Source of the DNA: Polyodon spathula
Lineage: Eukaryota; Chordata; Actinopteri; Acipenseriformes; Polyodontidae
Direction: 5' to 3'
DNA: 64,000 bases
NCBI RefSeq assembly: GCF_017654505.1
Contig: NC_054538.1
Location: 27,119,674 to 27,183,673, forward strand
Part shown: positions 18,481 to 61,449 of the stretch, one piece after another
How the letters are laid out: each line of letters opens with the position of its first letter
Position numbering within the stretch: position 1 is the stretch's first letter
Notes under the pieces: generated by a model
Told to the model about the DNA's origin: nothing
Databases searched by the model: none
Seen by the model: only the letters and a program-made list of their open reading frames with translations
Translations under genes and position numbers: made by a program

Positions 18481-18536
18481 TTATAGATGAGAAGATGTAG
18501 AGAAACAGAGTTTCAACGTGTATGGATTGGAGCCAT
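18481..18536 (-). CDS. HNRNPLL: HNRNPLL last coding exon L
   Basis: 56 coding bp. Acceptor gactttgcag completes the Asn codon, then [17 protein letters not shown] and TAA at 18483-18481. The 3' UTR continues to lower coordinates; its end cannot be fixed by eye. A TTTA microsatellite (18229-18262) reads AATAAA repeatedly on the gene strand and could act as, or hide, a polyadenylation signal. Confidence 0.94.
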
Positions 18537-19789: not shown

Positions 19790-22700
19790 GACATATATAT
19801 ATAATTAAGTTTGAATAAATATGCAGTTCAATTAAGGCACAAAGACGTGTTTTTTAATTAACTAAACAGATCCCAAAACCACATGTAGGGTAAAACTTTC
19901 ATAGAACCATTGTGGGACACAGGCAACAGCATAATATATGGCTTCATGTAGGGTAAACCACTTACTTGGTATCCTGATCTGGTAATGATTCAGTACCGTG
20001 AGGACCTCCACAGCATGCGTCTTGGTTTCAAATTCTAACAACCCTGATATCGTTTTGGAAGAAGCTAAAGGAAATTAAACAAGATTTACCATCAGAGTAC
20101 TAATAATAATAACAATAATAATAATAATATAAAAACTGTACTTACGTTTTGCATCAAACACCTTGTACTTTATAAACCCAGGTACATCATGTGTTGCACA
20201 CAACTGGGAACAAAACAAAAACAGCTGGTTAAACATTTCTAAAGAAATCTGTACACTGGGTGAAAGGTTCCCCACAGTTATGTTATGTGGAAAACTTGCA
20301 TGAGTCAGAAAACGAGAGGAGTAGATGCTAGACCATTTTATCACCACTAGATGGTGCTCACTAACACACAGTTTTCTTTGTTTTGTTATTTTTAAAAAAC
20401 ATTTTTTACAGAACGTGCCTCATTCTACTTTCAATTGTGTTATCAATTGAATAAGCAATTGTTTCAAAATTCTAAATCTTAAAATTAGCCTTAACTCACT
20501 GCTAGAAAGGCTATAATGATGCTTTAGAAAGACAAGAAACCACCACCACCACTTATAATGTGGAAAAACACTAGATATCATTCTATTAGAAAAGGCACAC
20601 TATAATTTGCAGGGAATTAAAAGAAAACATACAATACTTTGGTCAGATGCAATTAAACAGATACTGATATGCTATATTGGTATTATTTTAATTTGAAATT
20701 GTATTGTAAGGAGTTCAGAGTTTTCAATGTAGAGGATTCAACTTTATTGTAGGGATTTACGGTATCTACTGGTTATGTATTAAAAAATTAATACAATTAT
20801 ATTCCAAAAAAAAATATCTAAATCTCTTTGGAGCTCTCAAGGCTACACTGTCCTCTTATGTTGCATAAGTTTTGCCTAACTCTGAATGTCGGGTTAACGT
20901 CATTAGCACTAATGTGACATGGAGGCTCACCCCAAAAAACGTACACACGAAGCCTCACCTGCTGCAGCTCCTCCTCTGTGACACATGGGGGCACGTTGTA
21001 GAAGTGCAGGACGCAGGAGGGGGGCTGGATGATGTTCTTGGAAGCTTGACCGGCGCTGGTAAATCGATTGTTCCTGGTCATGGCAAAGTCCTTGTAACTG
21101 CTTGTGCCGTCCTCCAGCTCAAACACCTGGCTTGGTATAACTGCATGCTGCTTTGACACACTTTGAAAAACAATCAGAAATAAACTTAGAATCAGAGGGA
21201 TTATGAAGCATACCAGCAAAGAAAACTTGAACATACTGTCTCCTAGTACAACAATGCGGGGGGGTAAACACATCTTATCTGCTAGATGATGTAAAAAAAA
21301 ATTAATAAAAAAAAGTCACTTCAATTGCTGAATTGTTTTTTTTTTTTATCCCTTGCTATAGCCAATAAAAAAAACTGAACAAGTAACTCTGAAAACTAAC
21401 ATCTCTATGCAAAAAAAAACATATTTAATCAAAAATCTAAAACACAAAGGACTACACATTAATTAATATACTAATCACGATAAACAAAGTGTTCCGTATA
21501 AATAGGATTCCAAACCCAAACCTGTTATTTATTAAATTATTTAATGGAATAAACCACAATGGCATATTGGAAGGGTAACTACTCCTTACATGCCACTCTC
21601 CCATCAGTGATATGTGTTTGCATGGTGACTACAGACACAGTAGGACACAGAAAGGTGATTGTAGGTGTTATTTTGTCTATGCATCTGAACTTTTAAAATT
21701 AGTATATCCCATTAACCATTACTGAAGAGCTCTTTGTGTTGCTTTTAAGATGAGCACAACAGTCTGCAAAAAAAAAAACCCTGCAATCTGCAGCATGCTC
21801 TGTGCATGTTAAAACCCTACAATCTGCAGCATGCTCTGTGCATATTAAAACCTGCAATCTGCAGCATGCTCTGTGCATATTAAAACCCTACAATCTGCAG
21901 CATGCTCTGTGCATATTAAAACCCTGCAAACTGCAGCATGCTCTGTGCATATAAAAACCCTGCAATCTGCAGCATGCTCTGTGCATATAAAAACCCTGCA
22001 ATCTGCAGCATGCTCTGTGCATATTAAAACCCTGCAAACTGCAGCATGCTCTGTGCATATTAAAACCCTGCAATCTGCAGCATGCTCTGTGCATATTAAA
22101 ACCCTGCAATCTGCAGCATGCTCTGTGCATATTAAAACCCTGCAATCTGCAGCATGCTCTGTGCATATTGCAAAATCTTACCAGACATTGAGTCTCTTTC
22201 CAAACACCTTGATGCTATTGAGATGCGTGATGGCTCGGTCCACGGCATACTCGTCGCCCATTTCCACCAGTGCTGTACCGGGCACACTTTTCATAAACTT
22301 GACCTGGAATGAGAGAAATTACTGTTGAAGCGATCCACTTAAGAAACATGTTGGGCTAGATTCTCAAAAAAAATCATAATTATTTATTTTAGTTTTTTTT
22401 TAAATCGTCTAATCACAGTTAATAGTAAATCAGCACATCACCATTTCCGCTTAAACTTTCATTCTGTGTCCCGTAAACAAATATAAATCAGAAAAAAAAT
22501 GAGGGAGCACGAAGAATCATTTAAAAAATCAAGTTCAAATCCACGATATCAAATCCGAGACCCATAGAGACTTCGGAAACATATATCAAGACAATTCAAA
22601 ACACAGTTGCATATATTTTTTAAATGGTAATTCCTTTTTTGGATGTTTCGGGTGTTGACTATTAGCTAATAGTAACGTATTTCAATCTGTAGGTTTTCTA

Positions 22701-25700
22701 TAAGGAACAATTTTTAAGAATGGAGAAACTTTTATAAAGCGAGAGATCTAAATAATGTACTTGCTCTCCAATAATCAACATTCGAAACATCTAAAAACGA
22801 ATCTTCCTGTTGGACAGTTCCTCCGGATTAAGAGGATTTGTACTTCAAACGCTGATTAACATGCTGGCATTTTGGCAGAACGTTTTATGGCAAGGGGTTA
22901 TACACGACAGATAGTCCAGCCAGCATGGGATAGGGCAGATTCTACAAACAGGGATGACTTATTACAACAAAAATGTAAGAACAAATCAGAATCTCCCTTA
23001 ATCTATTCAACTAAATTTTCAGTTGGAGCTATGGAAATTAAAAACATAATATAGTTTCAAATGATACTCAAATCTATAAGGTTTAAAAAACAAAACAAAA
23101 CAAAAAAACATTGTCAATTTTAAGCGAGGGCAAAACATTAAGGATAAAGTAGTACATACTATGCATACTGTAGAAAAGGAATTAGAGTTGTCTTTTACAT
23201 TGCATCCTCCCCCAGCTGGTAACTACAGATATGGGAGGTGTGCTCAATGTAATAATACACAGAAAATAGATTATTTTCGTCACCCATACACAGGAAAGAA
23301 ATGCCCCATTCATCAATTTATCAATTGTAGTACCACCCATGTAATCTATATTCTGAAATGTCTGTGCCGTTTAATTTATGTTGGAAAAACAACTCAGCAA
23401 CTCCGCAAGAGAATTTCAGAACTTAAGAGTTCTATCAGAAGGAAAGATCCAAATTATCCTGTAGCTTTACATTTTGCAGAATCTGCCCATCCCTTCTCCT
23501 CATTACAATTTATGGGAATAGAGAAGGTAACTATATACACAAGGGGAGGTAATCTGGATAAATAATTACTAAAAAGAGAGATATATTGGATTTACACTTT
23601 GGAGACTTTGAAACCAAACGTCTTAAATGATGAATTAGATTTTAAACCTTTTTTATATATATATATATAGTTATTTGAAGTATGATGACATTTTTTCGAT
23701 CCTTCTTATAATACTGTTGTTTTGAATTTTCACTTAAAATGTATGCAATCAAATGGATAATTGTTTAATTGTGCAGATCTATTGATTAATTAGAAAATTA
23801 AATGTCTTGACTTCTGTGAATGAAATGTTTTTTAATTGAATTTTGTATTTTCTTTTTTGTATTGACTTGAGCATTTTTGCATTTAGGACACGTAAAAGGA
23901 AAAATAATGTATAAAAGAGAAAAACTGAAGATGTGAGCCAATTTATTTATATTTAATATTCAATTGAGGAGTGTCCCAATTACCATTTAAAAAATTGTAT
24001 AAAATGCAACTGTGTTTTGAATCACCTTAATTGCCTTGATAAAGGCTAAACGCCAGAACATTGATATAATTTTCCGAGGTCTCTATGGGTCTCGGATTTG
24101 ACATCATGGATTATAAATAATATAGAACCTGATTTTATAAATGATTTTTCGTGTTCCCTTATTTTTTTTTCTGATTTAATCACCTAATCAAATTATCAAA
24201 CCAGAAATAAACAACTTAAACATTTATAGTATAGGTTTGTTAACAGTCTCAGTTATTGTTTTATACGGGTAACTTGTGTTTTCTTTGTAAGAAGGAAATG
24301 CACTAATGAAGATTTGGAGTTAGTTGTATGACAATGAGAAATATCTTCCTGCTACAGATGTAAAACATTGTTTTTCTTTTAAAATATAAACAGTATATAT
24401 AAAATGAAACATTTGGATGTTTAAAAAATATTTATTTCAGCATGTTTAAGAAGGGTTTTGTCTGAAACACCCCGAAATAAATAAATTGTACACTGCAGTT
24501 ATACAGTACCTCCTTTTAAACCTATATACTTGGTTTAAAGCGCAACTGGACGTTCCAACACAACAACGACCCAAAGCACACATCAAAATCTACTTCAGAA
24601 TTGCTAAAGAAGAACAGAGTCAAGGTTCTGGTATGGCCAAGTCAAAGTCTTGATCTAAATCCGATTGAGAATCTTTGGTATGAGCTGAAGAAGTCTGTGC
24701 ACAAGAGATTTTGACGATTTTGCGTTGAAGAATGGTAAAAAATCACTAAAGAACCATGCCAAAAACCCATTGACAAATATCCTAATCGTTTAAAAGAGGT
24801 TATTATTGCTAAAGGTGCCTCAACTAGCTATTAATTAAATTTTCCTTTTCAGGGTATCAGTACTTTTGAATTAGCATTTTTTGGGTTTTGCGAAACAAAT
24901 TTCTGAAATAATTAATTGTAGACATCTATTTCTTGTAACTTTTTCCCACAAAAGCAAAGATTTTTCCTATAATTTTGTTTGAGAAATTTCTAGAAATGAT
25001 AAATTAAATTATGGTATGTAAACTTTTGACTACAACTGTACATATTAAACTTAATTGCCTCAATATGGGCAATATACAACATATGTTCCTGTGGCAATGT
25101 TGCCCCGCTGTGTGTATTTCTGTGTTGTACGTTGCGTGTGGTGTGTTAATGTTGGTGTATAGTCATTGGTACACGGGATATAATATGGGTTACGAGCACG
25201 AGTGTTTAAAATGTATATTTGTATTTAGGCACGAGGATTGCACAGCACTTCACTTGCAGGTAAAATGTAATAATATGCGAGCACGGGGAATTGCACTTTA
25301 TTAATTCACATGCAGTTGTACCGAGACTCCAACTGAATGATTGATTAGCAATCGAGTCTCAGTACAGCTGCATAAAAGCAGCATGTTTTCACTCACTCGG
25401 GGTTGTGTGTTTGGTGAGTGGAGAACGGGATTGGAGACGGAGGTAACAGTTAGAATAATAGTTACAATAATACCAGCTCACCGTGTGTCTGTGTAGTCCT
25501 TTTTGTTTGTCTCTTTGTTTTGGCTACGTGTGCCGTGTCCTGTGTTTTGTTTGGCTTTCAACCTTTTATTTTCTGTTTGTTCATTTATTAAATGCTGAGC
25601 ACAACCAAGCGCTCAGCTTCACCAAACACCACGTCTCTCTGTTTATTCCTTGTTGGCTCCTGGTTCTGGTCTGACGTCACCCACTACAGCTGTCTTTGTG

Positions 25701-28700
25701 ACAGTTCCTTACCGGTTGATGTTAAATGTTAAATTAAATTTGTTTCCAATATACTTTCAAATAATTCCTTTTTATCTTGTTAAACCATTCCTTTTTTAAC
25801 TTAATTTCAAACAACTTTTCCTGTTATGCGGCTTCCTACTACAGTTTCTTTGTTCTACCTGACAAAAACAAAACAAAACAAACAAACAATGACAGAAAAC
25901 AGAAAACGTTAGGTTATTATAATAATCCTGGTTCCCTGAAATAGAAATGTAACATTATCCTTTAATACCATTCAGGGTAGATGGTATTAGAGGATAAATA
26001 CCCACGAGGTAATGGTTGCATTTTGTACTTGATGTGGAACTAAACAGTGTGCCCACTCACCTTCTCAATGTTCCCATACAAACAAATAAGGTTGAAGATC
26101 CTGGTGCAGTTCATTCTCTTGGCATGCAGACCGCTCACCATGGCAACAGAGCTGGAGGAGGATGCTCCGTGGCCCATGTAGGAGGAGGTTTGGGGGAGTG
26201 GGTAAGTAACCACCTCCGGGATATCATGAGAGCCCATTTTATATCGATTATTACTCGACAAGGGCAGTAGGGGGCAGTGAGAACCTGAAGAACAAAAAAA
26301 AAGGAACACTCTGTTAAATCTCTGTTTCTCAATCTGTTAAATCTCTGTTTTTCAATCTGTTAAATCTGTTTCCCAATCTGTGAAAACCCTGTTTTTCAAT
26401 CTGTGGATCTCTGTTTCTCAATCTGTTAAATCTGTTTCCCAATCTCTGAAAACCCTGTTTTTCAATCTGTTGGATCTCTGTTTCTCAATCTGTTAAATCT
26501 GCTTCTCAATCTGTTAAATCTGTTTCTCAATCTGTTAAATCTGTTTCTCAATATGTTGAATCTTTCTCAATCTGTTAAATCTGTTTCTCAATACACTGAA
26601 TCTGTTTCTAAATCTGTTGAATCTGTTTCTCAATCTGTTGAATCTGTTTCTCAATCTGTGAAAACCCTGTTTTTCAATATATTGAATCTCTCTTTCTCAA
26701 TCTGTTAAATCTGTTTCTCAATATACTGAATCTGTTTCTCAATCTGTTAAATCTGTTTCTCAATCTGTTGAATGTTTCTCAATCTGGTGAATCTCTCTTA
26801 ATCTATTGAATCTGTTTCTCAATCCGTTGAATCTCTCTCAATCTGTTAAATCTCCATTTCTCAATCTGTTAAATCTGTTTCTCAATCTGTTGAATCTTTT
26901 TCAGTCTGCTGAATCTCTCTTAATCTATTGAATCTGTTTCTCAATCCGTTGAATCTCTCTCAATCTGTTGAATCTCTGTTTCTCAATCTGTTACATGTTT
27001 CTCAATCTGTTAAATGTTTCTCAATCTCTTAAATGTGTTTCTCAATCTGTTGAATCTCTTTCTCAGTCTGCTGAATCTCTCTTAATCTGTTGAATCGGTT
27101 TCTCGATCTGTTGAATCTCTCTCAATCTGTTGAATCTTCCTCAATCTGTTGAATCTCTGTTTCTCAATCTGTTAAATCTGTTAAATCTGTTTCTCGATCT
27201 GTTAAATGTTTCTCAATCTGTTAAATCTGTTTCTCAATCTGTTTAATCTCTTTCTCAATCTGTTTAATCTCTTTCTCAATCTGTTAAATCTTTGTTTCTC
27301 AATCTAAATCTAAATCTAACCAAACTATCCCTCTTTATTTGCATCTTGGCGTAAGCAGCCATATCTGCTATTATTATCCTGTGCAGGGGATACACTGGTC
27401 TGTATGTATGTCACTGAGGCAGGGCAGAAGCCCTGCTGCTATAAATGGTGTGTGTGTGGGAATATAAGGTTGGCAGGGATGGGGTTAAGTCTGTCCCTGC
27501 TAGCAATCACAGGTGTGTCCATTACCCAGTTAGGTAACTGGTGCTATTTGGGGAGTGTCCACATGTAAAAAATGAGCCAGAAATTCTTGGTTGGGGAAAG
27601 GAGTTTGTGCTGTGATGGTATCTGTAGCAGCCTGCAAGTCACTTATTCTTTTGTTTGAACATTTTACTTTGGATCTCGTGCCAGTTTATTTTGTTCCTAT
27701 TTGACTAAAGTAAAGTGTGACTGTGACGCTACCCTGTCAGTCACACTTTACATTTTTGTATATATCTAAAAGATGGAGTTCTGTCTGTCACACTTATATT
27801 GTACTTACATGTATCTTGAGAACACAAGAAGTTCTACATTCAGGAAATCAGTCATTTTAATATACCGTAACAGGATACAAACACCTCATCTGCTTATCTC
27901 ATGACATCTGATTTTACATAATCCACCTATAATTTGTATTAAACTATTCACTGGCATTTCTTATTTGATCCTATTCTTTATATATTGTTGATCATACTAC
28001 TGATAGGCTCTAATTTTGAATGTACAGCCATGGGAGGAAGGTGTACATTACAGGGTTCTTACGCTATTTTTCTGGGTGAAATCAAGGACTTTCAAGAATT
28101 TTTCATGGCCACACACATTATAATTTCCAAGACCAAAAAAGAATGTCACGCTACAATGCATATGTTTTTTCCCAATCAAAACTCCAACTGCAGTTACCTC
28201 AGCTGTATCGCAATAACTAAAACTATAATGGTGGTGACAAAAAATATATCATATGTCATAAAATGTCATATCACCCAAGAAACAACATTAACACTTGGAC
28301 ACACAAAGTCATCACAAAATTAAAAGGTCCGACTTAGTATATTCCATTAATAAAATATTAACTGACAATCTTATGTGGCTGTTTACTTGGTATTTTTAAA
28401 TTTATTTTATTTAGTGTGTCAAGTTATAATTTTCAATTTTCTCCCAATTTGGAATGCCCAATCGCTTTTCTCCTCATCGCAGCAATTCCTCACATGGCTC
28501 GGGAGACCGGAAGATTCAATGGGTGTCCATTGATCCCACGACAAAGCCAGCTTCCTTTTTCACGCAGGAACTAGAGAGCGGAAGTCAGTGAGCTACAGAC
28601 CTCTGGAGGACAAAGGCCACCCCTGAGCACACTGGGCGACAGGCCAGCAGGGTTTGCTGCAGAGCGATAAAGAGAAACAGCGCGTGCCGGTTTTACCTCC

Positions 28701-31700: not shown

Positions 31701-33575
31701 GTATGACTTTTCCATGATCCTATAATAAAATGCCAATTTTCCAGGGTATTCCAGGAATGGATTTTGTAAAAGCAGATTTCTAGGAGATTCTGTGTTTAAG
31801 CACCCGTATGAAACCTAATATTATTAAGGAAGGTGTATATTATTAAGGAAGGTGTATATTATTAATGAAGGTGTATATTGCTGGTATACTTGTTTTTAAC
31901 AGTTCTGATACTCTAAGGGGATGTGGCACATGAAGTGCTCCCAGAGGCAGTTGTATTGCTTGTTGGAAACAGCAGGAGCTTGTGTGAAACTCACCATACC
32001 CACTGTCACCATAGGAAGATGGGTGCTCTCCTAGGATGGCTTGCCGCTGCCTTCCCTTCCCCCTATCTGAAAAAAATTGCAATTGTTACATTACATTTAA
32101 AAGTGTTACCGCTAAATGCTAAAAAATGTGTAGATATATTGACCCACAGACTGTAAACAACAGAAAAACAGACTGCTTGACCAAAATCTCAGCCAGGTCA
32201 CATATCAGACCAAGGTCTCCAATTCTACAGCTATGGCCAAACGTTTTGCATCACCTAATAAGAGTAACTAATTTTGCTTCATAAAGTCGAATGAAACCTG
32301 TGGAATGTTACGTTAACATATTGAATTGCATACCTATATACATAATGAAAAACTGGCAAAAATTTAAAATTGTAACATTTCGAAATCTAAAATGAAATAC
32401 TGTACTGCTATTATGTCTTCTGGTAGACTTTTGATACAGTCAGAACTCGGATATCTGTTACCCAGTGACACGTCAAGTCGCGTTTTACGTCCTTGTATTA
32501 AGAATAAACCCAAGCCCCATTATTTATATGTAACAAATGAATGCACTTACCCGTCGCACGCGATTTCCGACTCTGTCACCAGTTTTCTGGTACAAAGCCC
32601 ATCTCTTCATTGTTACAGTTTATTTAAATATCCGCCACCACCCGCAGTTTTTTTTTTTGTGTGTTTTTTTCGTTTCGAAATTCCTCTAATTTCACATGAT
32701 GAAAATGCAGTAAAAACAAAGTGAACGAGACAAGCTACGGTAATGTAAAAGTTAATCATTAAACAGTTTTAGGTACTGTGATGCATTTTTTTTTTTTAAA
32801 TGTGATCTTCAGTTACTTTTGTGCATTTTCATTTGCAAGTGAACTGTGACAATTGGGCCTTATTTAGCATTATATTCTGCAATTTTGAATACTGATTTTG
32901 GATACTGTTTTACAGTAACTCTAGAAACTGTGTTTTTTAATCTTTTGCTAAATTGCATTGCCTTTTATATTTTACAGAGTTCTGTGCATGGGTAACATTT
33001 TGATTACATTTTTGGGTCGTTAATAGGGAATTTTACACAATGCTACAATAAGTATCGTACTGTATTACAGTCCACGTGTTGTTTCTTTTGGCAATCAGAA
33101 CAATACAGTTCTGAATTAAAATACTTACTCTGTTGAAAATACAGTACTGTTCCAACAAAACCAACTACAGTACATCAAAATGGAAGCCTACTTCTTTTAA
33201 AACACTGTCCTTTCAGCTATATATTTTTGACATTGTATCTTTTTTGTGTTCCCTGAAAAAAACATGGCATGGGTTGGAACAGACCAAAATGAAATAATCA
33301 GATAAGCGTCACACTCGTTTAACTGACACAGGAGTCAAAATTCATGTATCATTTTGTAGTTTCTTTGATTACATAATGCTAAGTAAAATATCTAAATTAT
33401 GTTCATACAGTTTATACATTTTTTAAAATGATGGTTCAATCCTAAAATTCTAGATGATGCAAAACCTTTAGCCACAGCTGTACAAGTGACTAGTTGAAGG
33501 TCATCTTTCAAGGTCAACAGTTCCAGAAGTATATGGCTTGTGCTTAAATGCCCTACAGACAAGCCAAATAATTCA

Positions 33576-36167: not shown

Positions 36168-39100
36168 TAAAGTAACCTTACCTCGTCTAACCAGATATGG
36201 TTTAGTGTAGTCCCAACTATCACTGTCATTTCTTATGACGTTAAGACGGGTTGGCTATTGGAAAAAGAGAAAACTTTAGGTTATTATTGTAACCCTGGTT
36301 CCCTGAAATAGAAATGTAACCATTACTGAGTGGGTATTTACCTCCGAAACCTATAAAATATATCAAAGCTGCCTGCAGAACCTGTGACACAGTCATTGCC
36401 CGCCCCCGAGGGTACAAAATGACACCAGTTTGCCGCTGGTTTGTGCCCTGGAGGTGGTTGCTTGTGATGCATGCGCACCAATTACTTTGTGGATTCCCGT
36501 GTGTGGTGAATGCGCTGCAGCATCTCGTCCACGTGTGCTTGGGAAAGCCAAAGCTGTCTGCGTACGGCTACCAGCACAGCCAGGTTTCCACCTACAGCCT
36601 GCCCGTTCAGTTTTGACAGACGGAACAGGTTCTTATGAATCAGGCGCAGGGCCTGTGGCTGTCAGAGAGGAACCTCAGCAAATAGGACCAGTAAACTACC
36701 AGAATACTATTAAAAGTTGCCCAGCCATGCGGCGAATGCATTGGTTGAATAGGCACGCTTGAGGATCACCTCCGAGACCCTGCACTGTTTGTTGGTGCAG
36801 ATAGTGCCCTTGGACAGGAGTGCTAAATTAGTTGTCTGTACCAGCGCGGCAACTGAAGCCTCTACCAGCGGAAATTAGGCCAGGCCCAGCTTCTCCACAT
36901 TGTGCACCCATATATAGGGTGTCCATAGACTGGGAAATAACAGGATCTGTAGCCAGGTGACCCCAGGACAACTGGATCCATTGGGGGTGGGGGCACGGGA
37001 GATGTGGTAGGCTAGTCATCAAAGATGGACTGTCTTGTTTCACCTTCTGAAGGCCAGCGCACTTGAAAGACTGCAGTGGCCTGCTGACAGGGAGAGCTTA
37101 ACCGCGGGGGATGTGCTGTCTGACTCCACGTCCTCAGACAGGAACACCAGCTCCTCAGAGACAGCGATGGACAGCATGTCATCCTGCAGTGAATCTGCAC
37201 TCATAGCCCCCTGGGATCCCAAAGAGATAGGTGGGGCAGGCAGCGTCGAACGTTTACGTAACTCTGTGAGCACCGTTCCTTGATGGGAAACTGTTGCCCA
37301 GAGTTTCTCCATCTGCTCCGAGCCCGCTGATCGCTTGGAATGGCGACTCTTTTCTTCTCTTCTTCCTCTTCCTCGAAAGAAAAGAAGGAGAGGCATAGGA
37401 GGATGAGGGAGTCTGTGAGGACAGCTTCCTTCATAGGCTACTTTCACGGGTGCATTGTCTGCTCTCCCTTGGCACAGAGCCATGGGGGGAGGACGTAGCC
37501 ACCTCTCTAATGTTGAGGGTGATGGGGAAGAGCTCTGTGCAGGAGTGAGGGACGCAGAGCACTCTGTAGAGCTGCGGGAGAGGCATTTCTCCAGCATGCA
37601 CTTGGAGAAACGTGCACAAAGCTTGTGGCTCACCAGTGCCTCCTTTGCGTGATCTGGCTCAATGCAGGAAGAGCATCTGCTGTGCTTGTCCTCAACAGGC
37701 AGACTAGCCTTGCATGTCTCACTGGGAAAAAACACAGGAATTATGCAAGTAGCAATGCAGTGTACAGTAACACTGGACAGGTGCTGCTTCAGTCTGCTTA
37801 AAGACAGCAATGGGGCTGCTCAAGGTTGGTACCAGATCGAGGATGTAACCTTTGGTTGGTAGTGCGTCAGAACCGGGACGGTACCAGTTTGGTTTGGTGA
37901 CTTTATCACTGGGTCAGTAATGTATGGTACTGGTTTGCGGCAACGGAGCAGGTCGGTGACCTCGGTACCAGTACGGTACGGGTCCACCAGTACGGTACGG
38001 GTCCACCAGTTCGCAGTTATCGCGGGTAGCACTGTACAGAGAACCTATGAAAGCTACTGGCAAAGCCAAGTTAGTACTCACACGAAACTGAGGGTAGCCT
38101 GCTTGTTAAAATGAACTAACAGCCCAGTTGGAACTGTGACACTACCAGGTAGGTTCACTACTGGTTTGGTGACTTCAGCACTGGGTAGGTATGGTATCTG
38201 TTCGGTCACCTTGGTCCCAGTTCGGTACAGTATGGTACCAGGTCAGGAACGGAGCGGGTCAGTTACCTCAGTACGGTATGGTATGGTAAGGGTCCACCGG
38301 TTTGCAGTTACCATGGGTAGCACTTTACACGGATGCCCACCTGTGCACGCTACTGGCAAAACCACTAAGTCAGTACTCACACGAGACAGAGGGAAGCCTG
38401 CTTGTTAGAATGAACTATCGGCTCTCGCGATGGTGATGCAAAAGCTGTCACCAAAACGGCATCAAGATGCTGTGGTAAAGATTGCAAGCAACCACAACCG
38501 AAGAAGCCTCTTGATCCTGCGCAACGCTGCTCTCAATACACGTGTGCCGCAGCACATAATGCAGACAAGTCTGCATGTAGTCCCTGTTAAAACAGAAAAA
38601 CACAACGAGAAAAGAAAAATATTTCTCTCATACAAAATACAGTAACAACAATTACTTTATTATACAAACCGTCTCGTAATTTTAGCCGAAGCCAAAACAA
38701 AAATAAAATAACTCCAACCAGAGCTATTGCAGCCTGGGGGAAGAGCAGCCAACTTACGTTGCTTGATCCCTGGGAAGGAGCGACTCAAGCCGCTGGCTTC
38801 ACGTGGGACACAAGCCCTCTGCAGGACGTAACAAACAGGCTGTAGTGCACAATATACCCGTAATTAATTTTGAAAAATTATTACAGCGTAAATAAATTAT
38901 CGCATTAAAACATAACAATTAGAGAAAATTATACAGTCATAAGCTACAAGTAGTCAACTGATAGGCTCCTTCTGTCAGGTCAGTCTAGAAAGAAAAATGG
39001 TGCAGAGGTCTGTGAGTGCTGTCATTTTGCGCCTGGGGGCGGGCCATGACGGCCTCACATGCTCTGTGAGCAACTTTGACATATTTTATAGTTTCGGGTC

Positions 39101-42100
39101 TTTAGGAGGTAAATACCCATTTGGTAATGGTTACACTTAGTACTTGAATGGGAAAAAACACTGTATGTTTGTTCAATGAAAAACTGTACAAATCTGGACA
39201 AGCATAAAGTTGTTACCCTTGCGTATTCAATTTTCAACGTGCAGCACCCAACATAGATATCAGCTCCGTTGAGGGCAGCTTTGGCTTTTTGAGCACTTTG
39301 AACAGATTCGAATGTAAGTACAAGTTAAGGATCATTACATACCCTGTGTTGTCTTTTCTTCCTAACTGTACAGCTACAGCCAAAACTGTTGCATCACCTA
39401 TACTTTTAGGATTGAGACACTGGAAGCCATAATAGTAGTATAGTACTTCATGTTAAATTTAGAATATGTCAATTTTTTTAATTTGTCAGTTTTTTGTACA
39501 TTATATGCTAAACTACAAAGCGGTATGTAATTCAATGTTAACGTAACATTATTCATCAGGTTTCATTCAACTTTATGAAGCAAAATGAGTTCATTCTATA
39601 GGGGGATGCAAAACATTTGGCCATAGCTGTAGATTCATATTTAAAGGGGCCTACAGGTAAAAAAAAAATACATTTCTGAAAATGACCCTCAATTAATACG
39701 TCTTTTAAAGTGGCAATCTTCATAGAAGATAATAATTTGGTGCTTGTCTATGAAACTAGGCTTGACAACCTGTCATTTCAAAGCCAGGTAACCTAGCATG
39801 CTGTAGTTTCAAGTGCAATTCATAAATGAGCTGTAGTACTGAACTGAGACAAAGATCAAATTATTGTTGTCTATAAAGGCCGTACAGACAACTATCAATT
39901 GTAAATATTTAGCTTTCCAGATTATTTTTTTAACCCAGTCAAGGGACAAAAATACATTTTTTTAGATACTTTTCTAAAATAAATCAATCTCTCCCACAGA
40001 GATTTACTGCGTCCCTGACACGGAACACTTTGCGAGGACAGCAAAAAAACGAAAACATTTTTTTCTTTGCAAATCTGTTTTTTGAGCATGAATCAAGGTC
40101 AGTAAAACATCAGGAGATACATTTTTTAAAAGCTAAGAAGCATGTTGAGTTTCCTTTGCAACGACTGCAGCAGATCTATGACCATCTCTTAAAATAGTAC
40201 AATGGAGTTTCATTTGCTCTCGTTGTATAGGTCATAGCATCAGATATTGGTTGAGGTTATCGTCCAACTCTCAGGCTATTGCATTTACCACTCTCATTTG
40301 GTAGACACTGTGCATTGCACCCAGCTCTTTGGCACGCTTCCCGAGCAGGATAGTTTACCACTTTTTCATTTAACCAAGAGGGTTCATTTCTAACAAAAAC
40401 TATAAAGTTATTCTGGTCCCGATCGGAATAATCTACTTGTAAAACAAACAGCGCATTATTTTCATGACAAAGCTGGTAAGAAGGCTTTTTACTGGCACAA
40501 CCAACACTGAGTTGCACTGGACTGGAAGAGTGAAAGAGGCAGTTTAGTCCCTTTCTGCTCCAAATGAGCAATCAGTGCAGCTCATTGAAACGTCTTCCTT
40601 CAGCTCTGCAGCTGCAGTGGAAAACTACACATTCCCAGTTAATGGATGGATCTAAAAGGATATTCCACCATGGCCTGTATGCCATTCCTCTTGAATATTA
40701 CAATACGGAGGACGTTTCCAGTCGGGTTGCAGACAGTGTATAAAACATCCTGTAAAAAGAAGACAAAAACACAGAAATAAAATTAAAAAAGCTAACGAAC
40801 ATCAGTTACTTATAAATGGTTCATTGGGTTTATCATGTAAATGATATGTCCATTATTGACACTGCAGCTAGGGCACTAAATAAACCTGCTCATGCAAACA
40901 AAAAAAAGAAAAATGAATAAAAACCAACAACACATTAATTTGTTTTAAATAAATAAAAAATACTGTAACTGAAACGTCTGGTTAGATTACTGGAAACTAT
41001 CAAATACTGTAAACAAGTAAAGCGCAAGTAATCTGTACTTTCTGTGTAATTTGAAAATAAAACTGTAAAAATCTGGACCAAAACACAATAGGCTTGCGTC
41101 AATGTTATAGGAACCGGAAAAAAACAGAAAAAAACACCCTGATTTGTGGTAGAGATTTCCCGCAGTTTCAATATGGTGTTTTGCTTATAAGCTACAGATT
41201 ATTTTTTTGTGTATCTACGGAACAATAAAGATAAGAATTTAAAGCACTTACCATTATTCTCACATTTAAAGGTCATGTTTTTATTCCAAGCTTTACCCTG
41301 TACAATAAGGCCCACACCTTAAAAGCAGTATGCTACACAAAAATGAAGCGAGTTACGTCTGATGGTTTCCACTCGTGAGCGTTATATTTATAAAAATATA
41401 TTCTCTGCATTCAATATGCACTCACTTCAAAGGGTTTCTCATTCCTTGGCACAATTTCGAGGCAGTCAGTTGTGTGCCGAATGGCTTCACTAGATTGCAA
41501 ATAAAAGACAGCGTTCTTACCGTTGTTATGGGGTAAAGAGGATTCTGAATGGACAACAGCAAGACATTATTGCCGCTGTTGGGGTTGTCTGAGTGTGTCG
41601 GCCGGGTGATCTTTTTACTGGTAGAATAATTCAAGAAGGCTTGCTGTCCAGCTATGTAGACAGCCTCATTGGCTCCGCACGCCACACACTTGTCAGCACT
41701 TTCAACCCCCTCAAACTCCACCAGAGCCTGCCTCTTAAAAGGCATCATCATCACGTAACTGGAAAAGTAAAAGGGAATGACAAGTTAGCATTCTAATCAG
41801 GTCAAGTAAGAGACAACACTCTGAGCTGCTCAGCACACCGGTCATGTAACAGAACAGTCCTTTCTTTGTGCTTTGACCTTTTATTATATACATTTTTTTT
41901 CATGAAGGCTCATTATCCAGTTGGTTTGTAAACATCACATGATTCCAGATGTGCCAAGCTAACATGTCACTCAAGCAACATTGTGATGGGATGATAATCC
42001 AAACGAGCAACATCTCCACACACTGCAAGGGACAGATAATGCCAGCTAGAAAGGCTAAATATAAAGAGCAGATGATACAGTGTGCCCAAAGTGGTAATAG

Positions 42101-43405
42101 ATCAGTAAAGGAAAAATGTCACCTAAATGACATACTACCATTGATATGCCTGTCATCAGTCATGCTTTTTGGATATCATGATGAGCTGAGATTCGACATG
42201 CAACATTACTCAGGATTTGCATCTGTAAACAGTGTTGCAACTGGAGGGCACAAAACAGCTGTGCTTGGTTATGAACACAGCATGATGTTGCCCTATGGCA
42301 ATAAAACCTGCATTGCAGCACATGGAACAAACAATGTGTTACACTATGATGAGTAAGAAAAAAGAAAAAAAAATTCTGAAATGTTTAAAAAAAAAAAAAA
42401 AAAAAAAGCCATGAACATTTCAATTTTGCAAAAAAAAGTACCTAAGTTTCCACTTACAACCTCTATATCAGAAATACTGCAGGAAACAACAAAACTGTCT
42501 TTCCTTTTGTAGGTATGGAACTAGTCCTTCTTATTAGACCAGAATTTACATGGAAGGCAGAAGGGCTAAATGCTGGTTTCACAATGTAGCCATATGCCAA
42601 ATTAATAGTAAAATGTGGCTTTGCAATTCCACAAAACTAAACTTATTATTCTTGATCAAGCAGTTGGTTGTAATAACAGCAGACCACAAGATACAACAAA
42701 AAACATACATCATTGTCATTTTTTAAATATGGACAACGTAGACTTGGAATCAGCCTGCAAGGCAAACAGTGTAATGTGAACTGTCTTGGAGAACACTAAA
42801 AATAAGCTATGAATTTGCCATGAATGAAAGTTGACATCTTCACTGGTAAATTGTATTCGAGCTCTGAATGCATTCCACATACTGTGAAAACCTGTAACAA
42901 GACTTGGTAAAGTGACAGTAACCCATACTGGAACATGTTGAGATTAGTCATTTGCTCAGACAACAGATTGTAAACTATACTAAAAATGCCCTGTCTAGTC
43001 TGTTTTATGTTTTTTAAGCTTCAATTGAATACAAAATCAGCAGTAGTACAGCTGTAAATGTTTTACACAACTACAACACCACTGATGTTTGGTTTCTACA
43101 GCTGCTAGCAGCCCAGATTTCATTATGATAGCATGGTTTGGGTCAGCACCTTGGCGAGAAAGGGATTTGTTACAGTCTAATTTTTTGTTGCTCTCTTGAG
43201 CGGCTGAATAAGCAGGCCTGACAACACATAAAAAAGTGATTGGAAATGTTGGCCAGCTAATATTATAGCCACAAGCTAAGACGCACCATATCGTCCCGAA
43301 CTTCTCCAGGGCTTCAACCAGGTCTGCCTCCACGACGGACTCACACAACCCCCGCACATGGACCACCGGGGAGGGGGGAATCCGGTGGGTTTCGTTCCCA
43401 TTGTC
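18481..43405 (-). CDS. HNRNPLL: HNRNPLL gene, 12 coding exons (2-12 plus last); first exon not in window
   Basis: hnRNP L-like, a nuclear RNA-binding protein with four RRMs; the family binds CA-rich RNA and controls alternative splicing (CD45/PTPRC exons in mammalian lymphocytes). Twelve exons total 1446 bp, 481 codons and a stop; mammalian HNRNPLL is about 540 residues, so roughly 60 N-terminal residues are missing. RRM1 starts at SPVVHVRGL with RNP1-like RQALVEF; RRM2 at VLLLSIQN with IQAMVEFE; RRM3 at VAMVSGLH with [11 protein letters not shown]4 at VLHFYNVP with GLLEFE. The C-terminus is [10 protein letters not shown]. It is HNRNPLL rather than HNRNPL because of [32 protein letters not shown] and [13 protein letters not shown], and because the HNRNPL proline/glycine-rich linker is absent. 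Every exon is open and phases agree at all 11 junctions, so the gene looks functional. Ten introns are GT-AG and one is AT-AC. Confidence 0.96.
19714..19785. repeat. (TG)n-(TA)n microsatellite
   Basis: A short TG run (19709-19722) continues into about 31 TA units, in the intron between exon K and exon L. Confidence 0.97.
19966..20064 (-). CDS. HNRNPLL: HNRNPLL coding exon K (RRM4)
   Basis: 99 bp. Acceptor tttcctttag, donor gtaagtgg. Encodes [20 protein letters not shown] and [13 protein letters not shown] with a split Asn codon at the end. The GLLEFE segment is RNP1 of RRM4. Confidence 0.95.
20146..20203 (-). CDS. HNRNPLL: HNRNPLL coding exon J (RRM4)
   Basis: 58 bp. Acceptor gttcccag, donor gtaagtac. 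Encodes [19 protein letters not shown] plus the first base of a Pro codon completed by the next exon. A TAA/CAA microsatellite follows the donor at 20097-20131. Confidence 0.94.
20342..20357 (+). promoter_or_regulatory. CTCF-like motif
   Basis: tcaccactagatggtgctca matches the CTCF core CCASYAGRKGGCRS at all but one or two positions. Motif match only; no evidence of binding. Confidence 0.35.
20959..21160 (-). CDS. HNRNPLL: HNRNPLL coding exon I (RRM4 start)
   Basis: 202 bp. Acceptor gtttttcaaag, donor gtgaggctt. Encodes [59 protein letters not shown] and CVTEEELQQ. The most conserved exon of the protein, nearly invariant between fish and mammals. Confidence 0.96.
21776..22170. repeat. 36-bp minisatellite, about 11 units
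   Basis: Unit contains CTGCAATCTGCAGCATGCTC followed by tgtgcatattaaaacc. Because 36 is a multiple of three, both strands read as long repeat-encoded open frames, which are artefacts. The array begins after a run of ten A and ends about 10 bp from the 5' splice site of HNRNPLL exon H. Most units differ at one to three positions. Confidence 0.96.
22182..22303 (-). CDS. HNRNPLL: HNRNPLL coding exon H (RRM3 end)
   Basis: 122 bp. Acceptor tcattccag, donor gtaagattt. Encodes [20 protein letters not shown] and [20 protein letters not shown], then V and a split Cys codon. The donor lies about 10 bp from the last unit of a 36-bp minisatellite. Confidence 0.95.
22484..24178 (+). mobile_element. Penelope-like retroelement with inverted terminal repeats
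   Basis: Arms 22484-22635 and 23976-24178 are inverted copies sharing aaatcagaaaaaa, cacgaa-aatcattta, tcaaatccgagacccataga and attcaaaacacagttgca blocks. Between them lies a truncated Penelope ORF: a reverse-transcriptase linker segment ([14 protein letters not shown] at about 22803, [15 protein letters not shown] at 22886) and a GIY-YIG endonuclease (23161-23565). Penelope elements are known to carry pseudo-LTRs that may be inverted. Most of the reverse transcriptase is missing. Confidence 0.88.
23161..23565 (+). pseudogene. Penelope GIY-YIG endonuclease domain fragment
   Basis: 134 codons. [20 protein letters not shown] carries the VIY and YVG halves of the GIY-YIG motif, with a Cys-rich stretch before it ([19 protein letters not shown]) as in Penelope and Neptune elements, then [25 protein letters not shown] and FMGIEKV, typical of the same family. 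The C-terminal part of the domain is followed by a stop (23566), so it may be slightly shortened. Confidence 0.88.
24530..25038 (+). mobile_element. Tc1-like transposon, 3' half
   Basis: Plus strand reads [20 protein letters not shown] and later [20 protein letters not shown]: the second Asp and the Glu of the DDE triad in Tc1/mariner. Three stops follow. The right end is the fish Tc1 TIR: tatgtaaacttttgactaca and caactg, then TA at 25039. The left half is missing. Confidence 0.9.
25090..25703 (+). mobile_element. Solo LTR, copy 1 (same family as 44392-44985)
   Basis: Begins TGTGGC and ends TGACA, flanked by an identical 5-bp duplication gttcc at 25085-25089 and 25704-25708. TATA-like cataaaag at 25371, attaaa polyadenylation-like signal near 25585, then a CT-rich U5. 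614 bp. About 80 percent identical by eye to the second copy. No internal retroelement sequence beside it, so it arose by recombination between two LTRs. Confidence 0.88.
25902..26040. repeat. DIRS terminal-repeat derivative
   Basis: Starts gaaaacgttaggttatta, contains tggttccctgaaatagaaat, and its right half is the inverse of the middle of its left half (gggtatttatcctctaatacc). Same termini as the DIRS element at 36269-39154. It is essentially two terminal repeats joined without the internal region. It ends about 20 bp from the HNRNPLL exon G donor. Confidence 0.75.
26061..26284 (-). CDS. HNRNPLL: HNRNPLL coding exon G (linker and RRM3 start)
   Basis: 224 bp. Acceptor ttgttcttcag, donor gtgagtggg. 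Encodes [40 protein letters not shown]3 RNP2 VAMVSGLH, and [18 protein letters not shown]. Flanked on one side by a 1-kb short-period satellite (26290 onward) and on the other by a DIRS terminal-repeat derivative ending about 20 bp from the donor. Confidence 0.95.
26266..26284 (+). promoter_or_regulatory. CTCF-like motif inside exon G
   Basis: gcagtagggggcagtgagaa matches the CTCF core well, but the bases are also fixed by the coding sequence CPLLPL of exon G. Match only. Confidence 0.25.
26320..27315. repeat. Short-period satellite, CAATCTGTTAAATCTGTTTCT type
   Basis: About 1 kb of irregular 16-24 bp units on the theme tctcaatctgttaaatctgt, with variants such as tctcaatctgttgaatctct and ctgtgaaaaccctgtttttc. 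It starts about 35 bp from the acceptor of HNRNPLL exon G. Confidence 0.95.
27405..27790 (+). repeat. LTR-like sequence
   Basis: tgtcactgaggcagggcag, gctataaatggtgtgtg as a TATA box, a GT-rich body, and gtgtgactgtgacgctaccc near the end resemble a retroelement LTR. Neither the end nor a target duplication could be placed. Confidence 0.45.
28425..28805 (+). repeat. SINE-like interspersed repeat, copy 2
   Basis: Same family as 15250-15600: ccaatttggaatgcccaat, cagcaattcctcac, ctcgggagaccgga, gagctacagacctctggagg, acaggccagcaggg, gggccaatac, ggatgcgaacctgcg. More GC-rich than its flanks. Confidence 0.6.
29095..29384. repeat. 290-bp near-perfect palindrome
   Basis: Left arm 29095-29241 and right arm 29244-29384 are inverted copies (about 145 bp each, roughly nine differences) separated by only 2 bp. 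Centre is tactgtaaatacagta. RNA from either strand would fold into a very long hairpin. No TIR of a known family at the outer ends. Confidence 0.95.
29356..29706 (-). pseudogene. Transposase-like protein, C-terminal fragment
   Basis: 116 codons. [32 protein letters not shown] and [14 protein letters not shown] resemble the C-terminal part of an uncharacterised TE-like protein seen in many fish genomes, in which 'DRVDxFFY' precedes the hAT-like WEVVKxLLxLSHGQA region. Here the frame stops inside the palindrome. Function of the family unknown; identification by memory only. Confidence 0.5.
29891..30468 (-). pseudogene. Transposase-like protein, middle fragments
   Basis: Two overlapping minus-strand frames (30468-30103 and 30106-29891) shifted by one base. 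The second contains [20 protein letters not shown] and [20 protein letters not shown], matching the 'ITPFLTKYQTDxPMLPFL' theme of the family that includes the 29356-29706 fragment. The frames look like one protein broken by a frameshift. Confidence 0.5.
31995..32066 (-). CDS. HNRNPLL: HNRNPLL coding exon F (linker)
   Basis: 72 bp, phase 1 in and 1 out. Acceptor tttttcag, donor gtgagtttc. Encodes [20 protein letters not shown] and DSGYG, the linker peptide that sets HNRNPLL apart from HNRNPL. Being a multiple of three, it could be skipped without loss of frame. Confidence 0.95.
32228..33480. mobile_element. Mariner/Tc1-type non-autonomous element, long copy
   Basis: Ends CAGCTATGGCCAAACGTTTT and, inverted, CAGCTGTGGCTAAAGGTTTT, each flanked by TA (32226-32227 and 33481-33482). 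1253 bp, no transposase motifs seen; the interior may carry other insertions. Shares subterminal tttcattcaactttatgaag-type blocks with the short copy at 39371-39629. Confidence 0.8.
33582..33643. repeat. (TA)n microsatellite
   Basis: About 31 uninterrupted TA units in the intron between exons E and F. Confidence 0.97.
35570..35587 (+). promoter_or_regulatory. CTCF-like motif (strong)
   Basis: accagtagggggcactagag: CCAGTAGGGGGCAC matches CCASYAGRKGGCRS at every position. Lies inside the intron between exons E and F. Motif match only. Confidence 0.5.
36099..36163. repeat. (TA)n microsatellite next to exon E
   Basis: About 32 TA units ending 19 bp from the exon E donor (36181). Confidence 0.97.
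36182..36254 (-). CDS. HNRNPLL: HNRNPLL coding exon E (linker after RRM2)
   Basis: 73 bp. Acceptor tttccaatag, encodes [20 protein letters not shown] and LVRR plus one base of a Gly codon; donor gtaaggtta. A (TA)n tract starts about 20 bp downstream of the donor, and a DIRS element begins about 15 bp upstream of the exon, so both splice sites are crowded by repeats. Confidence 0.95.
36445..37810 (-). pseudogene. DIRS gag-like ORF (LAP2alpha-like domain), frameshifted
   Basis: Starts near 37810 in a 256-codon open frame with a Cys-His cluster ([20 protein letters not shown] then C-x6-C), then Ser-rich and charged stretches. After frameshifts downstream comes [20 protein letters not shown] (about 36990-36930), [36 protein letters not shown], and [20 protein letters not shown] with [14 protein letters not shown] near 36560-36500. 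This order is that of DIRS-family gag, the source of the LAP2alpha-specific domain of mammalian thymopoietin. At least one frameshift near 37040. Not functional. Confidence 0.8.
37860..38420. repeat. Two tandem ~280-bp units in the DIRS leader
   Basis: Unit 1 (about 37860-38121) and unit 2 (about 38122-38420) share ctggtttggtgact, gggtccacc, gcagtta, gggtagcact, cacgctactggcaaa, gtactcacacga and gcctgcttgtta in the same order. Inside each, gtaccagtacggtacgg is itself repeated. They lie upstream of the gag-like ORF and may be its leader or promoter repeats. Confidence 0.8.
39217..39313 (-). CDS. HNRNPLL: HNRNPLL coding exon D (RRM2 end), begins after an AC acceptor
   Basis: 97 bp. Its first A completes GA|A TTC GAA, giving [20 protein letters not shown] followed by [13 protein letters not shown]. 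The acceptor dinucleotide is AC, not AG; there is no AG in the preceding 30 nt. Donor gtaacaac, phase 0. Confidence 0.93.
39314..40663 (-). other. HNRNPLL: U12-type AT-AC intron of HNRNPLL
   Basis: 1350-bp intron. 5' splice site ATATCCTTTT at 40663-40654, branch site TCCTTAAC at 39331-39324 (perfect consensus), acceptor AC at 39315-39314, branch adenosine about 11 nt from the exon. These are the three diagnostic elements of minor-spliceosome introns, and splicing here gives the conserved AMVEFES peptide. It also holds a mariner-type element (39371-39629) and a 104-codon open frame of unknown meaning (40257-40571, minus). Confidence 0.92.
39371..39629. mobile_element. Mariner/Tc1-type non-autonomous element, short copy
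   Basis: 259 bp. Ends CAGCTACAGCCAAAACTGTT and, inverted, CAGCTATGGCCAAATGTTTT, flanked by TA on each side. Contains gaatgaaacctgatgaat in inverse orientation compared with the 32228-33480 copy. Sits in the U12-type intron. Confidence 0.85.
40664..40749 (-). CDS. HNRNPLL: HNRNPLL coding exon C (RRM2), ends at a U12-type donor
   Basis: 86 bp. Acceptor tttttacag, then [20 protein letters not shown] and NGIQAMVE. The exon ends ATG GTG GA, and the intron begins ATATCCTTTT, the consensus of U12-type AT-AC introns. No GT donor at this place keeps the conserved reading frame. Confidence 0.93.
41521..41758 (-). CDS. HNRNPLL: HNRNPLL coding exon B (RRM1 end, RRM2 start)
   Basis: 238 bp. Acceptor cttttccag; its first T completes the Cys of [12 protein letters not shown]. 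Contains RRM1 RNP1 ([10 protein letters not shown]), [18 protein letters not shown], and RRM2 RNP2 ([17 protein letters not shown]). Donor gtaagaacg, codon phase 0. The family usually has V after IT where this protein has T. Confidence 0.95.
41759..43286 (-). other. HNRNPLL intron between exons A and B
   Basis: Contains a 135-codon plus-strand frame (41949-42356) followed at 42384-42405 by a poly-A tract, and a mostly unique remainder. No second exon is required by the coding phase. Confidence 0.6.
43287..43405 (-). CDS. HNRNPLL: HNRNPLL coding exon A (start of RRM1)
   Basis: 119 bp, phase 0 in and 2 out. Acceptor ttggttccag before GAC AAT GGG; donor gtgcgt after the TG of a split Cys codon. 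Encodes the end of the N-terminal region and RRM1 RNP2 with [20 protein letters not shown]. Probably exon 2 by comparison with the mammalian gene; residues before HRIPPSP belong to the variable N-terminal segment. Confidence 0.93.
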
Positions 43406-60667: not shown

Positions 60668-61448
60668 AACATAAGAACATAAGAAAGTTTACATACGAGA
60701 GGAGGCCATTCGGCCCATCTTGCTCGTTTGGTTGTTAGTAGCTTATTGATCCCAGAATCTCATCAAGCAGCTTCTTGAAGGATCCCAGGGTGTCAGCTTC
60801 AACAACATTATTGGGGAGTTGATTCCAGACCCTCACAATTCTCTGTGTAAAAAAGTGCCTCCTATTTTCTGTTCTGAATGCCCCTTTGTCTAATCTCCAC
60901 TTGTGACCCCTGGCCCTTGTTTCTTTTTTCAGGCTGAAAAAGTCCCTTGGGTCGACACTGTCAATACCTTTTAGAATTTTGAATGCTTGAATTAGGTCGC
61001 CACGTAGTCTTCTTTGTTCAAGACTGAACAGATTCAGTTCTTTTAGCCTGTCTGCATATGACATGCCTTTTAAGCACGGAATAATTCTGGTCGCTCTTCT
61101 TTGCACTCTTTCTAGAGCAACAATATCTTTTTTATAGCGAGGTGACCAGAACTGCACACAATATTCAAGATGAGGTCTTACTAGTGCATTGTACAGTTTT
61201 AACATTACTTCCCTTGATTTAAATTCAGCACTTTTCACAATGTATCCGAGCATCTTGTTAGCCTTTTTTATAGCTTCCCCACATTGTCTAGATGAAGACA
61301 TTTCTGAGTCAACAAAAACTCCTAGGTCTTTTTCATAGATTCCTTCTCCAATTTCAGTATCTCCCATATGGTATTTATAATGTACATTTTTATTTCCTGC
61401 GTGCAGTACCTTACACTTTTCTCTATTAAATGTCATTTGCCATGCCAT
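60668..61448 (-). mobile_element. CR1-type LINE, 3' end with intact ORF2 C-terminus
   Basis: 237 codons open from 61448 to 60735, covering the last part of reverse transcriptase and its C-terminal extension: MTFNREKCKVLHAG, EKDLGVFVDSEM, ALVRPHLEYCVQFWSP, ERVQRRATRIIPCLKG, LNLFSLEQRRLRGDLIQAFK, VWNQLPNNVVEADTLGSFKK. 3' end carries the octamer-like repeats ataagaacataagaacataa. 5' truncated. No stops in 237 codons, so it inserted recently in comparison with 11196-11950. Confidence 0.93.
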
Positions 61449-61449
61449 A

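Follow-up and report, generated by a model that had tools for sequence, protein, structure and literature searches.

The coding region of the second RNA recognition motif (RRM2) of HNRNPLL in the paddlefish Polyodon spathula appears to be interrupted by a genuine U12-type AT-AC intron, and the U12-type intron known from human HNRNPLL is most likely its orthologue; we put the probability of this reading at about 0.96. The intron lies on the minus strand of a stretch of 64,000 nucleotides (nt) from contig NC_054538.1 (assembly GCF_017654505.1, positions 27,119,674 to 27,183,673; hereafter the window). According to our splice model and its translation, it extends from position 40663 to position 39314, with a length of 1350 nt and phase 2. 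A first-pass annotation had placed an AT-AC intron at this site, and its coordinates proved exact to the base in the splice model. That the interrupted domain is RRM2, and likewise the other RRM numbers used here for paddlefish exons, we assume from the family.

The minus strand of the window contains most of HNRNPLL as 12 coding exons, from position 43405 to position 18481 (Table 1). When joined, these exons form a single open frame of 481 amino acids with a terminal stop, identical to residues 56–536 of the database protein P0001 (heterogeneous nuclear ribonucleoprotein L-like isoform X2, Polyodon spathula). The next matches were to sturgeons (98% and 96%) and to a second P. spathula HNRNPLL protein (P0005, 96%). 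In P0001, four RRM models of Pfam were found over the cut-off and one (RRM_10) under it. The 61-amino-acid spliced product of the two exons flanking the intron aligned over its full length with the PDB chain 7evs_A (HNRNP L-like; E-value 1.5e-31, compared with 5.7e-30 for HNRNPL), and the alignment included the residues VEFES. The 61-residue PDB match and the 481 identical residues confirm by similarity that the gene is a HNRNPLL orthologue, as had been proposed, and the EFE said to be restored by splicing is present both in the spliced product and in the 7evs_A alignment. No match to the N-terminal 55 residues of P0001 was present in the window, including its upstream region from 43405 to 64000; exon 1 therefore probably lies beyond position 64000, and intron 1 would exceed 20 kb.

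Read on the minus strand, the junction consists of exon ...GGCCATGGTGGA, intron ATATCCTTTTAGAT ... TCCTTAACTTGTACTTAC and exon ATTCGAATCTGT. The 5′ end of the intron is ATATCCTTTT, and its 3′ end is TCCTTAACTTGTACTTAC with a terminal AC, so that its termini are those of the AT-AC subtype at the sequence level. For scoring, we used RTATCCTT and TCCTTRAY, which we take to be the consensus sequences of U12-type donors and branch sites, respectively. The intron matched each at 8 of 8 positions, the branch motif being TCCTTAAC, and the U12-type donor and perfect branch site of the first-pass annotation were thereby reproduced. The other 10 of the 11 modelled introns are GT-AG introns, and in this control set the donor match did not exceed 5/8 and the branch match did not exceed 6/8. 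The terminal base of the intron is 12 nt from the first A of the branch motif and 11 nt from the second; the earlier statement that the AC follows 11 nt past the branch holds when counted from the second A, and not from the end of the motif, where the distance is 10 nt. These 10 nt, in the region where U12-type introns have no distinct polypyrimidine tract, read TTGTACTTAC.

The spacing of 11–12 nt between branch site and AC falls within the published optimum of 11–13 nt for U12-type introns (PMC3584512), and phase 2 agrees with the bias of such introns away from phase 0, a tendency rather than a requirement (PMC7367187). An intron with AT-AC ends could also be imagined to be removed by the major spliceosome, as a U2-type AT-AC intron. 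However, the U12 class is defined by the donor and the branch site and not by the termini (PMC3584512), and here both elements match the U12 consensus at all eight positions with the right spacing, which makes a U2-type AT-AC intron very improbable.

When the cut point was shifted from –8 to +8, the same mRNA was obtained, besides AT-AC, only at +1 (TA..CA) and +2 (AT..AT), and AT-AC is therefore the sole register with known termini. All GT-AG, GC-AG, AT-AC, GT-AC and AT-AG combinations around the junction were also enumerated, with donors drawn from the interval between 3 nt within the exon and 400 nt beyond the claimed donor, and acceptors from that between 400 nt ahead of the claimed acceptor and the exon end. 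An open frame was kept in 58 of the 4016 splice pairs, and the claimed AT-AC pair obtained the top score (279, on a scale in which the PDB HNRNPLL reference scores 315 against itself). The runner-up scores belonged to AT-AC or AT-AG pairs lacking the claimed donor, the claimed acceptor or both. Within the range tested, RRM2 was not rescued by any GT-AG pair: the three open ones scored 138, 127 and 98 and each deleted at least 24 of the 61 residues, the best (138) losing 24. Nor was it rescued in this range by any GC-AG pair, the best of which scored 190 and deleted 16 residues. We accordingly rejected GT-AG, GC-AG and mixed pairs at the junction, as none of them rescues both the frame and the domain, and the earlier claim that no GT-AG pair restores the protein stands for the range tested.

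The motif RTATCCTTT occurred once in the window, compared with 1.60 expected from shuffles, and TCCTTAACN{4,12}YAC occurred three times, compared with 0.63 expected. On these counts, the U12 motifs alone are unremarkable, and it is their exact position at both exon edges that carries weight. By our own arithmetic from the window rates, the joint chance of both motifs at the junction is ~1e-10 (about 1e-5 × 5e-6).

We compared the junction among 120 HNRNPLL orthologues listed from 1247 matches, counting an insertion or deletion (indel) if it fell within 6 amino acids of a junction. Indels were present at the AT-AC junction in 27 of the 120 rows, compared with 0, 1, 5, 8, 8, 1, 1, 0, 0 and 10 rows at the ten other junctions, and the AT-AC junction is thus a hot spot of discordant gene models. 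As a control, PTBP1, a relative that appeared in the PDB search, had no indel at the equivalent place in any of 120 rows listed from 3820 matches. The pattern QAMVEFE[ST] was found in 88 rows and the read-through QAMVEYP in 11; 17 rows were cut directly after QAM, two read QAM.TF and two were otherwise different. A gene predictor bound to GT-AG must fail at an AT-AC intron. VEYP is the translation of GA/ATATCC (the slash marks the exon edge), which implies a putative ATATCC-like donor of the same kind in the fish that show this read-through. An assembly or sequencing error might have turned a GT-AG intron into an apparent AT-AC intron, since the window represents one assembly. However, the read-through in other fish annotations points to ATATCC-like bases there as well, the branch site and its spacing fit equally, and a U12-type intron of the human gene is in print (PMC3564746); such an error is scarcely credible.

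A U12-type intron in HNRNPLL is already known and not new. As the first-pass annotation had suggested, the human gene appears in lists of minor-intron genes: Janice et al. (2013, PMC3564746) gave HNRPLL with a U12-type variant in their Table 1, among 18 human twintron genes, and the entry is repeated in a 2021 review (PMC8329584). In the former, the U12 variant has 537 amino acids and the U2 variant 536, with small differences between them in an RNA recognition motif; the authors regard the U12-type form as ancestral and describe the twintron introns as conserved among vertebrates. In the latter, the U12 intron of HNRNPLL is described as the external and the U2 intron as the internal one. The two accounts do not fit well, because use of an internal U2 intron would be expected to make the protein longer, and the table has one residue fewer.

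A twintron in the paddlefish too, with a U2-type intron competing for this site and producing a second RRM2 variant, would agree with these human variants of 537 and 536 amino acids and with the 17 listed rows cut after QAM, which fit a GT donor at ATG/GTGGAA. The two QAM.TF rows suggest a shifted pair using the same GT, and the paddlefish carries this GT at 40668. However, the GT at 40668 takes part in no open GT-AG pair, so that no twintron was found in the window, and across the searched range every GT-AG or GC-AG pair sacrifices either the frame or part of RRM2. Any donor deeper in the intron is kept from coding by the read-through stop at 40641, and the orthologue rows cut after QAM may be artefacts of gene prediction under the GT-AG rule. 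On balance, we consider a paddlefish twintron improbable. Compared at the gene level rather than the base level, the paddlefish and human genes thus have a U12-type intron in common, whereas the twintron part is missing from the paddlefish in the searched range.

Within the minor class, AT-AC introns had been called a rare minority, a wording that was a little strong: since they account for 24% of minor introns (PMC8280824), the subtype is uncommon and not extraordinary. The same paper reports that CENATAC depletion affected 92% of A-type minor introns. The paddlefish intron shares the termini of this subtype, although no mention of hnRNPLL was found in the running text of that paper.

Several points weigh against the U12-type reading. 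Its support is drawn from DNA and protein sequence, and since P0001 comes from a database too, its match with the splice model counts as only partly independent. The orthologue rows, 120 of 1247 matches, are annotated proteins, some from the same or a sister species, and are grouped in database clusters of which some share a species or genus; they cannot be treated as independent events, so the excess of indels at the junction is descriptive. The PTBP1 control is imperfect, as its named rows are tetrapods and most HNRNPLL rows are fish, and it presupposes that PTBP1 has an intron at the equivalent place. Overall, the interpretation of the first-pass annotation is supported.

The paralogue HNRNPL was surveyed in 120 proteins (P0121–P0240) listed from 1567 matches to a human HNRNPL query sequence. 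The canonical form of the equivalent junction was found in 101 of these, and 11, including camel, two birds, gecko and teleosts, showed the QAMVEYP read-through. Four rows had LTFDS upstream of the exon, as expected from ...CTTAC/ATTTGAC. An AT-AC minor intron common to HNRNPL and HNRNPLL is the simplest reading of these protein patterns, and we regard it as highly probable. No mention of a minor intron in HNRNPL was found in the literature listings and passages searched. The per-junction indel count was rejected as evidence for HNRNPL: indels were found at the equivalent place in 14/120 rows and at other mapped junctions in up to 119/120, the high counts probably resulting from divergence of the two proteins there, and the VEYP read-through was relied on instead.

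In the proposed mechanism, U11/U12 would recognize the donor ATATCCTTT together with the branch site TCCTTAAC, and minor splicing would join GTGGA to ATTCGAA, producing VEFES. If minor splicing failed, the intron would be retained and a stop codon would follow the first 22 intron nt. Because no major-spliceosome pair keeps the frame and the domain in the range tested, production of full-length HNRNPLL is expected to require the minor spliceosome. Sequence analysis shows the splicing elements, the frame, the product and the lack of a rescuing GT-AG or GC-AG pair in the range tested, whereas we infer the use of the sites and the dependence on U11/U12/U6atac and CENATAC. We likewise infer that HNRNPLL would be sensitive to minor-spliceosome activity.

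The flanking exons comprise 86 + 97 = 183 nt, and because both outer junctions are in phase 0, their joint skip would be in frame and remove 61 residues. In other genes, inhibition of the minor spliceosome raises skipping of one or both flanking exons (PMC8034651), and in eight genes the loss of both exons was the only event (PMC6717393). The paddlefish exon pair resembles these cases in being skippable in frame, but the corresponding joint was found in 0 of the 120 listed HNRNPLL rows and in a single human HNRNPL isoform. In this database protein (isoform X3, P0143, 471 amino acids), YSITT is joined to PTRLNV with 61 residues removed in frame, and no further joint skip was present in the 120 HNRNPL rows listed. 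The database proteins P0141 and P0152 have different, partial deletions here, and QAM is joined to PTRLN in P0154. Skipping of the downstream exon alone, with QAM joined to P[TS]RLN, was seen in six listed rows (five HNRNPLL and one HNRNPL). For HNRNPLL, joint skipping is thus no more than a possibility.

An extension of this idea is that the RRM2 AT-AC intron predates the split between HNRNPL and HNRNPLL, persists in both and acts as a gate: sufficient minor-spliceosome activity would yield the full-length regulators, whereas under low activity the major spliceosome would skip both exons in frame, yielding hnRNP L and LL without 61 residues of RRM2, and the level of minor-spliceosome activity would thereby retune major splicing via both proteins. 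For HNRNPLL, the presence of the joint skip in 1 of the 240 listed HNRNPLL and HNRNPL rows, and in none of the 120 HNRNPLL rows, counts against this idea, which we consider unlikely. A regulatory role of the intron is unproven, and the shared HNRNPL intron and the exon pair skippable in frame should be regarded as leads rather than results. HNRNPLL resembles SRSF10 (PMC7244321) in that both are splicing regulators with a minor intron in their own mRNA, whereas autoregulation has been demonstrated experimentally for SRSF10. Autoregulation through CA-rich sites in the intron received no support: ACACA/CACAC occurs once in its 1350 nt, or 0.74 times per kb, and just one of the 11 introns has a lower density (range, 0–9.10 per kb).

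Table 1. Features of HNRNPLL and of its predicted U12-type intron, in positions of the window
Feature	Positions	Strand	Basis
Predicted U12-type AT-AC intron, 1350 nt, phase 2, between two RRM2 exons	39314..40663	minus	splice model, translation, product identical to P0001
5′ splice site ATATCCTTTT, 8/8 to RTATCCTT	40654..40663	minus	motif match
U12-type branch site TCCTTAAC, 8/8 to TCCTTRAY	39324..39331	minus	motif match
3′ splice site AC, 11–12 nt from branch A	39314..39315	minus	splice model
TAA stop reached on retention, after VEYPFRSIH	40639..40641	minus	translation; within first 25 intron nt
Exon, start of RRM1 (number assumed)	43287..43405	minus	splice model
Exon, 3′ end LYPITT, phase 0	41521..41758	minus	splice model
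Upstream flanking exon, 86 nt (DVLYT...AMVE)	40664..40749	minus	splice model
Downstream flanking exon, 97 nt (FESV...EYAR)	39217..39313	minus	splice model
Exon, 5′ start PTRLNV, phase 0	36182..36254	minus	splice model
Exon	31995..32066	minus	splice model
Exon	26061..26284	minus	splice model
Exon	22182..22303	minus	splice model
Exon	20959..21160	minus	splice model
Exon	20146..20203	minus	splice model
Exon	19966..20064	minus	splice model
Last coding exon with stop codon (SSHL*)	18481..18536	minus	splice model

Other features of the window were recorded separately. A 36-bp tandem repeat (11 copies, 96% matches, 21775–22169) starts some dozen bases past the donor of exon 22303–22182, and 47 copies of a degenerate 21-bp unit form a long array (26310–27305) that ends about 25 bases upstream of exon 26284–26061. 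Inside the HNRNPLL intron 26060–22304, on the opposite strand, an open reading frame (ORF) at 23080–23565 (plus strand) gave a weak match to a GIY-YIG endonuclease (21 bits, against a cut-off of 22.6) and presumably resembles a Penelope-like element. Another ORF of 250 amino acids at 60735–61487 (minus strand) had no Pfam match even at an E-value of 1; by eye, its sequence suggests the final part of a reverse transcriptase from a non-LTR retrotransposon. No Rfam family of structured RNA reached its gathering score in the window. A scan of the region for bacterial-type promoters gave 5 sites against 4.8 expected, a result that is meaningless for a vertebrate gene.

These results indicate that a minor intron can be detected in raw sequence through the protein frame that its removal restores. 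To judge from the sequence patterns, both hnRNP L paralogues are probably dependent on the minor spliceosome. If this is confirmed at the DNA and RNA levels, two broad splicing regulators would be targets in minor-spliceosome disease, and the predicted readout would be retention of the intron or a joint in-frame skip of the two exons.
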